From Xanthomonas bonasiae (lineage in GTDB: Bacteria; Pseudomonadota; Gammaproteobacteria; Xanthomonadales; Xanthomonadaceae): a stretch of 64,000 nucleotides of DNA. Where the stretch lies: NCBI RefSeq assembly GCF_017163705.1, contig NZ_JAFIWB010000020.1, positions 1 to 64,000 on the forward strand, read 5' to 3'. This document shows positions 39,624-41,004 of the stretch, piece by piece. The first letter of the stretch is position 1. Every line of letters begins with the position of its first letter. The notes beneath the pieces are model-generated. The model was given only the letters and a program-made list of their open reading frames with translations, ran no database searches and was not told the origin of the DNA. A program made the position numbers and the translations under genes.

Positions 39624-39941
39624 TCAGGGCTGGACCAGCTTCAGGCCGATCACGCCGGCCACGATCAGCCCGATGCAGGCCAGCCGCGCCGGCGAGGCGC
39701 TGTCGCCGAACAGCGCGATGCCCAGCGCCGCGGTGCCCAACGCGCCGATCCCGGTCCAGATCGCATACGCCGTGCCCAGCGGGATGTGCTTCAGCGCCTG
39801 GGTCAACAGCCACAGGCTGATGCCGGCGCCGGCCAGCGTGCCCAGCGTCGGCCACAACCGGGTGAAGCCTTCGCTGTACTTGAGTCCGAGCGCGAAGCCG
39901 ATTTCGAACAGGCCGGCGAGCAGCAGGTAGATCCATGGCAT
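39624..39941 (-). CDS. gdx: Guanidinium exporter Gdx (SugE-type SMR protein)
   Basis: 105 residues with four transmembrane helices. The essential Glu13 is in LLLAGLFEIGFALGLKYS; the G-x6-W-type pattern and LKYSEGF follow the Gdx/SugE branch rather than EmrE. Gdx exchanges guanidinium for protons. ATG is at 39939-39941 with GGAG seven bases upstream, and this ribosome-binding site lies inside a short ACGG-loop hairpin. The upstream leader carries guanidine-II-type hairpins, supporting the assignment. Confidence 0.93.
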   Translation of the reverse strand: MPWIYLLLAGLFEIGFALGLKYSEGFTRLWPTLGTLAGAGISLWLLTQALKHIPLGTAYAIWTGIGALGTAALGIALFGDSASPARLACIGLIVAGVIGLKLVQP

Positions 39942-39945
39942 TGTC

Positions 39946-40048
39946 TGTCTCCGTAGACAAATAAAAACAAAAACGGCCCGATGTCTGCACATCGGGCCGC
40001 CGTCGGCAGGGGTCGCAGCGCAAACGCCGCGGGGCGGGCCGTCCCGCC
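39946..40048 (-). promoter_or_regulatory. Guanidine-II (mini-ykkC)-like riboswitch of gdx
   Basis: In the gdx leader, minus strand, three hairpins with ACGG tetraloops are visible: GGCGGG-ACGG-CCCGCC (40048-40033), GCCG-ACGG-CGGC (40007-39996) and TGTCT-ACGG-AGACA (39959-39946). The guanidine-II riboswitch consists of two such ACGR-loop hairpins. The second hairpin shares its CGGC 3' strand (39999-39996) with the 5' arm of the terminator at 39974-39999, so the two cannot form together. The third covers the gdx ribosome-binding site. Ligand binding by the first two would therefore favour read-through. Which pair acts as the aptamer is inference. Confidence 0.8.
39963..39999 (-). terminator. 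Intrinsic terminator between speD and gdx
   Basis: Eleven-bp stem CGGCCCGATGT / ACATCGGGCCG, loop GCAG, followed on the minus strand by TTTTTGTTTTT. It ends the speD transcript and also lies in the gdx leader, where its base competes with an ACGG-loop hairpin. Confidence 0.92.
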
Positions 40049-40060
40049 GAATGTGACGTG

Positions 40061-40855
40061 CTACTCGGCCAGATTGCGACCGTGGAACAGTTCCTCGATC
40101 TCGCGCTTGAGCAGCGCCTCGATCCGCATGCGCTCCTTGAACGAGAGGTTCTTGGCCTTTTCCTCGAACAGGTACTGGTCCAGATCGAAGTCCTTCAGGT
40201 GCATCTTGGTGTGGAAGATGTTCTCCTGGTAGACGTTGACATCGAACATCTCGTAACGCGCCTTGATGTTCTTGGCCAGGAAGTTCTGGATCGAATTGAT
40301 CTTGTGGTCGATGTAGTGCTTCTTGCCCTTCACGTCGCGGGTGAAGCCACGGATACGGTAATCCATGATCACGATGTCCGATTCCAGCCGCTCGATCAGG
40401 TAATTGAGCGCCTTCAGCGGCGAGATCACCCCGCAGGTGGCGACGTCGATGTCGGCGCGGAAGGTCGCGATGCCGTGCTGCGGGTGGGTTTCCGGGTAGG
40501 TATGGACGGTGATGTGGCTCTTGTCCATGTGCGCGACCACCGCGTCGGAGATGATCTCCTTGCCGGCCAGCTTCTTGTCGATCACCGGCTCTTCGGAGAT
40601 CAGGATGGTCACCGAGGCGCCCTGCGGATCGTAGTCCTGGCGCGCGATGTTGAGGATGTTGGCGCCGATGATCTCGGCCACATCGGTGAGGATCTCGGTC
40701 AGTCGGTCGGCATCGTACTGCTCGTCGATGTACTCGATGTAGCGCTGGCGCTCCTCTTCGGAAACCGCGTAGCAGACGTCGTAGATGTTGAAGCTCAACG
40801 CCTTGGTGAGGTTGTTGAAACCTTGCAGCCTCAGGCGAGGCAACGGCTTGACCAC
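40061..40855 (-). CDS. speD: S-adenosylmethionine decarboxylase proenzyme
   Basis: 264 residues, the E. coli-type class. Start GTG at 40853-40855 gives (M)[20 protein letters not shown], as in other xanthomonads. Autocleavage occurs before the Ser of [13 protein letters not shown] (about residue 112), creating the pyruvoyl cofactor. It provides aminopropyl groups for spermidine. Upstream of gdx in the same direction, divergent from clp. Confidence 0.95.
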
Positions 40856-41004
40856 GGGCGTGAATCCTCTAAAAGATGGATGGGGTAGAAAGGGCAGCAA
40901 TTATGGGCCAAACGCGCCCGTAGCGAAACGTGGGGATTGGCGCTCGTTTGCCGCAGACAACGCGTCCCGTTAAGCTTCGGGACTCACGTAGTAGCGAAGC
41001 CGCC

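Follow-up and report, generated by a model that had tools for sequence, protein, structure and literature searches.

Guanidine-II riboswitches (mini-ykkC, RF01068) consist of two hairpins with G-C-closed ACGR loops upstream of gdx/sugE, which are connected by a linker of 7-40 nt (PMC7544219). In the crystal structure, the binding pocket is built from the closing G-C pair, the loop residues A, C and G and an extrahelical purine, and in one member the linker has to span about 49 angstroms (PMC5486947). With respect to output, the class has been called 'exclusively translational' (PMC9561414) and a 'translational switch' (PMC12186494), described as acting 'in a translational manner' (PMC7544219) or 'proposed to be translational' (PMC9094411). 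Tandem guanidine-II aptamers are the subject of a further study (PMC9481103). In the E. coli gdx (sugE) leader, which combines the same gene with the same type of sensor, exposure of the Shine-Dalgarno (SD) sequence is the described mechanism (PMC13064478). Rho-dependent premature termination has been reported in its 5' UTR as well (PMC7815308), so that transcription-level control has a precedent in this class. Two other classes are ON switches at the level of transcription. Guanidine-I (ykkC) acts by antitermination (PMC12186494), and guanidine-IV (mepA/GGAM-1), often located before sugE, responds to guanidine via an intrinsic terminator (PMC7736828). Among the papers found in literature searches, none reports by title or abstract that a guanidine-II riboswitch uses an intrinsic terminator or occurs in Xanthomonas or Stenotrophomonas. 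A study of X. campestris RNAs lists seven Rfam riboswitches, none of them for guanidine (PMC7694677), as expected if Rfam misses the leader form described here.

The leader between speD and gdx of Xanthomonas bonasiae is quite likely a kissing-hairpin riboswitch of the guanidine-II type that works as an ON switch and uses an intrinsic terminator as expression platform. It resembles guanidine-II in its two G-C-closed ACGR hairpins, the full set of pocket nucleotides, the linker length and the position before gdx/sugE. It differs in having a terminator instead of SD control, with the 3' arm of the second hairpin forming the 5' arm of the terminator, and also in a conserved hairpin within the linker, a C-G second pair in P2, a sub-cut-off Rfam score and the location behind speD. 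In contrast to the Rho-dependent termination in the E. coli gdx leader, the terminator found here is intrinsic, conserved and shares bases with P2. Guanidine-IV has no conserved ACG trimers, and the window leader gave no Rfam match to it at E values up to 10. Guanidine-I has a different aptamer, to which the window leader was not matched either.

The leader between speD and gdx

The window (the whole analysed stretch of 64,000 nt) carries the following features, listed in the direction of transcription with the basis of each assignment in brackets.

40061..40900, minus strand: speD, S-adenosylmethionine decarboxylase, directly upstream of the leader, longest frame (TIGR03331)
40033..40048, minus strand: P1 hairpin GGCGGG-ACGG-CCCGCC, first guanidine-II-like half (sequence, pairing in 53 leaders, loop counts)
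40014..40031, minus strand: linker hairpin CGCGGCG-TTTG-CGCTGCG between P1 and P2 (fold and covariation)
39996..40007, minus strand: P2 hairpin GCCG-ACGG-CGGC, second half, putative antiterminator (pairs in 82 distinct leaders)
39974..39999, minus strand: intrinsic terminator stem-loop of 11 bp, 5' arm with CGGC in common with P2 (covariation and terminator scan)
39963..39973, minus strand: terminator U-tract TTTTTGTTTTT (sequence)
39944..39961, minus strand: third ACGG hairpin TGTCT-ACGG-AGACA over the ribosome-binding site, judged to lie outside the switch (genus comparison)
39624..39941, minus strand: gdx/sugE, SMR exporter, 105 aa (SugE profile, solved structure)

The three ACGG hairpins and the terminator given in the first-pass annotation were all present on the minus strand between speD and gdx, but the conserved 7-bp linker hairpin (40031-40014) had been missed. 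P1 starts 12 nt downstream of the speD stop codon and is spaced from P2 by 25 nt, most of which is occupied by the linker hairpin. The last four bases of P2 (39999-39996) are at the same time the first four bases of the terminator stem, and 32 nt lie between this stem and the ATG of gdx (39941-39939). The third hairpin, which reaches 7 bp if extended, covers the GGAG at 39952-39949.

The gdx product was best matched by the NCBIfam profile SugE NF008512 with 124 bits, slightly below the cut-off of 126, and its closest solved structure is the SMR protein 6wk5, which we take to be Gdx-Clo. The longest speD frame gave 462 bits with TIGR03331 in an alignment beginning at residue 22; the real start of speD lies probably further inside this frame.

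Hairpins of at least 4 bp with an ACGR loop number 28 in the window (10 on the plus and 18 on the minus strand). Three of them inside 110 nt occurred at this single site, and 30 simulated Markov-1 sequences, each 64 kb long, contained no comparable cluster. The leader fold had a z-score of -3.57 relative to shuffled sequences. Between positions 39900 and 41100 one terminator-like site was found compared with 0.9 expected in shuffles, and a lone terminator is thus within chance for this region. A scan of the region around the leader detected no sigma-70-like promoter near it. In five leaders outside the genus of the window (L007, L059, L125, L137 and L174), a GGTTACAT...GGTTCGG...TAGnCT-like stretch recurs upstream of P1. 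This GGTTACAT-containing stretch between speD and P1 is possibly a gdx promoter. In L007 (X. chitinilytica), the terminator is separated from the ribosome site by nearly 200 nt, which include a REP-like stretch of inverted repeats.

The order speD-leader-gdx on one strand was found at all of the 30 best loci from a covariance search of genomes of the order. speD was located upstream at 45 of 45 terminator-type loci with enough flanking sequence, compared with none of 21 classic loci, and three more speD-adjacent loci (L007, L123 and L124) likewise matched the leader model. A three-loop antitermination layout behind speD had been expected to be unusual. For this leader, the position between speD and gdx is the rule.

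Distribution and covariation of the leader

The comparison comprised leaders from 80 named loci, the best of at least 538 gdx loci, together with 29 loci from genomes of the family, in which gdx was matched at 1e-25 in 154 of 247 genomes, and 60 further stretches. P1, terminator and P2 (or an altered P2) were found at 19 of the 80 named loci (L007-L020, L024, L028, L059, L064 and L073), 18 of them recognised by pattern and L007 by the leader model. These loci belong to Xanthomonas, Stenotrophomonas, Pseudoxanthomonas, Lysobacter and two other records of the group. In the genus of the window, the leader was present in 18 of 20 genomes. In the other two (G001 and G012), gdx was not matched at 1e-25, and neither P1 nor P2 was seen downstream of speD.

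Among 299 genomes of the order, 60 were matched by the covariance model at E≤0.01 and 52 at E<1e-8, all 52 from the family of the window. A search of 398 genomes of the phylum gave 18 matches, seven from the family at E<1e-8 and the remainder at 4.2e-6 or weaker. The strongest match outside the family had an E value of 4.2e-6 (L259), and the alignments available from 9 of the 13 outside loci searched contained a terminator but never both ACGR-loop hairpins. An occurrence outside the family was rejected on the basis of these matches and alignments. We regard the unit of P1, linker hairpin, P2 and terminator as conserved in Xanthomonadaceae. Both leader forms coexist in genome G047, where a classic guanidine-II leader (30.2 bits, slightly below the cut-off) precedes another SMR-like gene, and a leader of the terminator type precedes gdx (L222 and L135/L255). 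On a gdx tree of 140 rows the terminator-type genes require six changes, five of them forced by supported branches. Replacement of the gene under a fixed leader is not claimed; a single gdx clade was not rejected in a set of 59 rows (p-AU 0.19).

Pairing was analysed in leaders picked by a pattern that required the P2 core. This selected 54 leaders, with those lacking the core (S. maltophilia type, L123 and L124) and L279 falling outside the pick; exchange of L116 for the window, which is the same stretch, and removal of L168 gave an alignment of 53 rows. In P1, 98.1% of the cells were paired, with two-sided changes at two of six pairs. The linker hairpin was paired in 98.1% of the cells with changes on both sides in all five counted pairs, and the terminator in 98.6% with such changes in six of 11 pairs. 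None of 500 shuffles gave whole-structure pairing measures as high as those observed, and the pairing signal was lost when partners were slid by one to three columns.

The outer core pair of P2 was G-C in 29 of the 53 leaders, A-U in the other 24 and broken in none. Its 3' base is also part of the terminator, where it was paired as C-G, U-G or U-A in 53 of 53. A switch between P2 and terminator predicts one base that keeps partners in two mutually exclusive helices, and the shared column fits this prediction, in line with the competition that had been proposed for these two structures. On the gdx tree, the swap between G-C and A-U corresponds to three changes, and well-supported branches enforce two of these. 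Being invariant and part of the row-selection pattern, the three inner pairs of P2 provide no covariation evidence; two additional outer pairs form in just 20 and 10 of the 53 leaders. Comparison of the stems among relatives, as suggested beforehand, thus revealed changes on both sides in P1 and the terminator and variation of the outer core pair of P2, but no compensation in the third stem.

The leader covariance model was run over 94 sources that had been chosen as seeming leader carriers and included the alignment rows, so that its 94 matches do not represent a discovery rate. They comprise 82 distinct leaders; seven further matches (E 0.0014 to 0.0088) lie outside this count. The P1 loop was of the ACGN type in 80 of the 82 (ACGG 42, ACGA 33, ACGT 4, ACGC 1; GCGG in the other two). 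P2 loops were ACGG in 64, ACGA in eight and others in ten leaders, and P2 stems were GCCG/CGGC in 38, ACCG/CGGT in 31 and others in 13, with all four pairs formed in 69. Both hairpins were intact with ACGR loops in 61 leaders, which agrees with the guanidine-II-like character assigned to P1 and P2 in the first-pass annotation.

The full pattern was departed from in the other 21 leaders, including ten of the S. maltophilia type and several members of the genus. The S. maltophilia-type leaders (L008, L009, L011, L013, L017, L145, L146, L147, L149 and L165) have kept P1 and the terminator, and their P2 loop has become a five-base loop with the pattern ACCNA (ACTCA in L017). This change may reflect a loss of function or the use of a different antiterminator or ligand. 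Altered copies with a retained terminator were also observed in the genus: P2 is one base shorter in L123, its stem is changed in L279, both P1 and P2 are altered in L124, and the P1 loop is GCGG in L275 and L278.

Relation to the guanidine-II family

RF01068 scored the window leader at 16.8 bits, below its gathering cut-off of 32. None of 20 terminator-type relatives exceeded the cut-off (best 29.1 bits) compared with 18 of 20 classic leaders from the same family in a shorter search, and the cut-off was not reached in any of the 20 genomes of the window's genus. The Rhodanobacter and Dyella loci (L022, L033, L037 and L053) possess the classic two hairpins adjoining the ribosome site and reached 34-42 bits. 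In 10 other loci searched alongside these, all matched by the leader model, RF01068 found nothing at E values up to 5. By score, the leader is not a formal member of RF01068. A missing RF01068 hit together with unconserved loops had been named beforehand as the outcome speaking against a guanidine-II relative; the hit is indeed missing above the cut-off, but the ACGG loops are conserved in relatives. Elsewhere in the genome of the window (G000:C29:13356-13401, L001), RF01068 gave a sub-threshold hit of 22.3 bits (E 0.06), slightly above the score of the leader, and similar weak hits were seen in most genomes of the genus. Low-scoring Rfam matches to Xoo8, sX6, naRNA4 and C0465 in the window were taken as chance.

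P1 and P2 of the window are two ACGR-tetraloop hairpins, and by sequence each of them contains all pocket nucleotides, from the closing G-C pair through A, C and G to the purine. The GG..CC stem beside the loop is found in P1 but not in P2, where it is CG..CG. CG..CG was counted in 61 hairpins of terminator-type leaders; in other leaders, 109 of 111 hairpins had GG..CC. The C-G instead of G-C at the second pair of P2 is required by the shared terminator arm. The linker of 25 nt is inside the known range and contains the conserved hairpin, and the gdx-like gene downstream corresponds to the guanidine export or degradation genes associated with the class. Instead of an SD/anti-SD platform, the leader has a conserved terminator overlapping P2; in contrast, 11 of 20 classic leaders combine CTCC in the linker with GGAG at the SD position.

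A candidate read-through switch and competing explanations

The observed properties of the leader are helices whose pairing is conserved, an arm common to P2 and the terminator, conserved pocket nucleotides and the order speD-leader-gdx. Guanidine would probably turn on gdx via continued transcription and not via release of the ribosome site. In the proposed mechanism, transcription would enter from the speD side, and P1, the linker hairpin and P2 would fold as the polymerase leaves speD. In the presence of guanidinium, P1 and P2 would kiss through their ACGR loops, trapping two ligands and holding P2. P2 would thereby keep its 3' arm CGGC from the base of the terminator, and the polymerase could enter gdx and the exporter be made. 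If guanidinium is absent, the 11-bp terminator would capture CGGC from the 4-bp P2, and transcription would stop before gdx. Formation of P2 removes the four terminator pairs beside the U-tract, which should disable the terminator.

Folding energies of -58.3 kcal/mol were calculated for the terminator state versus -50.0 kcal/mol for the state with P1 and P2. The difference of 8.3 kcal/mol in favour of the terminator suggests OFF as the default state. Growing transcripts were folded in steps of 3 nt, with position 40060 taken as their start. At lengths of 66 to 81 nt, the minimum free energy folds contained P1, the linker hairpin and P2 at a stage where the 3' arm of the terminator was still incomplete. 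P2 thus precedes the complete terminator in these folds, which would leave a co-transcriptional window for the ligand to trap it. Seven unpaired nucleotides and a hairpin could suffice for the linker span measured in the crystal structure. Points against the proposed switch are the shortness of P2 with 4 bp in the window and its second pair, C-G instead of the G-C of other leaders, as well as the sub-cut-off Rfam score, the 21 leaders that depart from the full pattern, the frequent terminators behind speD and the negative promoter scan. An outer helix P0 between the 5' end of the leader and the terminator arm, seen in folds of partial transcripts, was rejected as its own pairs scored no better than swapped ones (3.79 versus 3.80 in 63 leaders).

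The third ACGG hairpin had been suggested to add translational control, and a leader with three aptamers, the third also binding guanidine over the ribosome site, would account for the perfect ACGG hairpin of 5-7 bp over GGAG in the window and seven other leaders of the genus. Among all 18 leaders from the 20 genomes of the genus, however, this hairpin was intact in eight, carried a one-sided mismatch at the fourth pair in nine and was absent from one (L127; eight were broken among 17 leaders scored together, L121 being read separately), and compensation by the 5' arm was found in none. In the compared leaders from other genera, the only similar structures found by scanning were weak hairpins of 4 bp with an ACGA loop at this site (L155 and L170), and by sequence GGAG could also sit in the 8-nt loop of an alternative 6-bp stem. 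Stabilisation of the third hairpin by the ligand would moreover hide the ribosome site and oppose an ON switch. We therefore rejected it as a functional part or third aptamer, consider it probably incidental to the ribosome site and regard a three-aptamer leader as extremely improbable.

The terminator might also be the 3' terminator of speD itself, with the ACGG hairpins being incidental or relics. In a lenient scan reaching 230 nt beyond the speD stop codon, terminator-like hairpins were present at 24 of 28 speD loci, 27 of the 28 being loci without the leader, so that a terminator downstream of speD is common in itself; several leaders, too, have retained the terminator with an altered P1 or P2. 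Covariation of P1 and the linker hairpin and the constancy of the P1 loop are at odds with incidental hairpins. Furthermore, the two genomes of the genus without a gdx match have lost P1 and P2 and gave no leader model match, although terminator-like hairpins are located 152 and 177 nt after their speD. A P2-like hairpin behind speD occurred in one of 27 genomes examined, in which gdx is located at this place (L335), and in the window the terminator stem is close to the gdx start codon. Taken together, we consider this explanation unlikely. Another guanidino compound such as agmatine or methylguanidine could replace guanidine as the ligand, since the guanidine-II pocket has an open side and accepts methylguanidine, aminoguanidine and agmatine (PMC5486947). 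The upstream gene serves polyamine synthesis, and the second pair of P2 as well as some P1 loops are unlike those of classic members. The controlled gene resembles a SugE/Gdx exporter, however, and the window has kept every pocket nucleotide, which makes a different ligand rather improbable. Comparably little weight is given to an extended version, a family-specific read-through switch in which one half of the kissing-loop aptamer doubles as an arm of the terminator. Such a switch would respond to a guanidino compound from polyamine metabolism, for instance agmatine, instead of guanidine and would couple speD transcription to export. The S. maltophilia lineage with its five-base P2 loop would then have moved to another ligand or antiterminator.

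We favour the guanidine-responsive antitermination switch described above. The naturally altered copies, in which P1, P2 or a loop is changed, are ready test cases for it. If this reading is true, a very small cooperative aptamer can drive control of transcription with a P2 of 4 bp, and a lineage of likely guanidine sensors is overlooked by Rfam. The expression platform would then differ among the branches of one family, with Xanthomonas, Stenotrophomonas and Pseudoxanthomonas carrying the terminator version.
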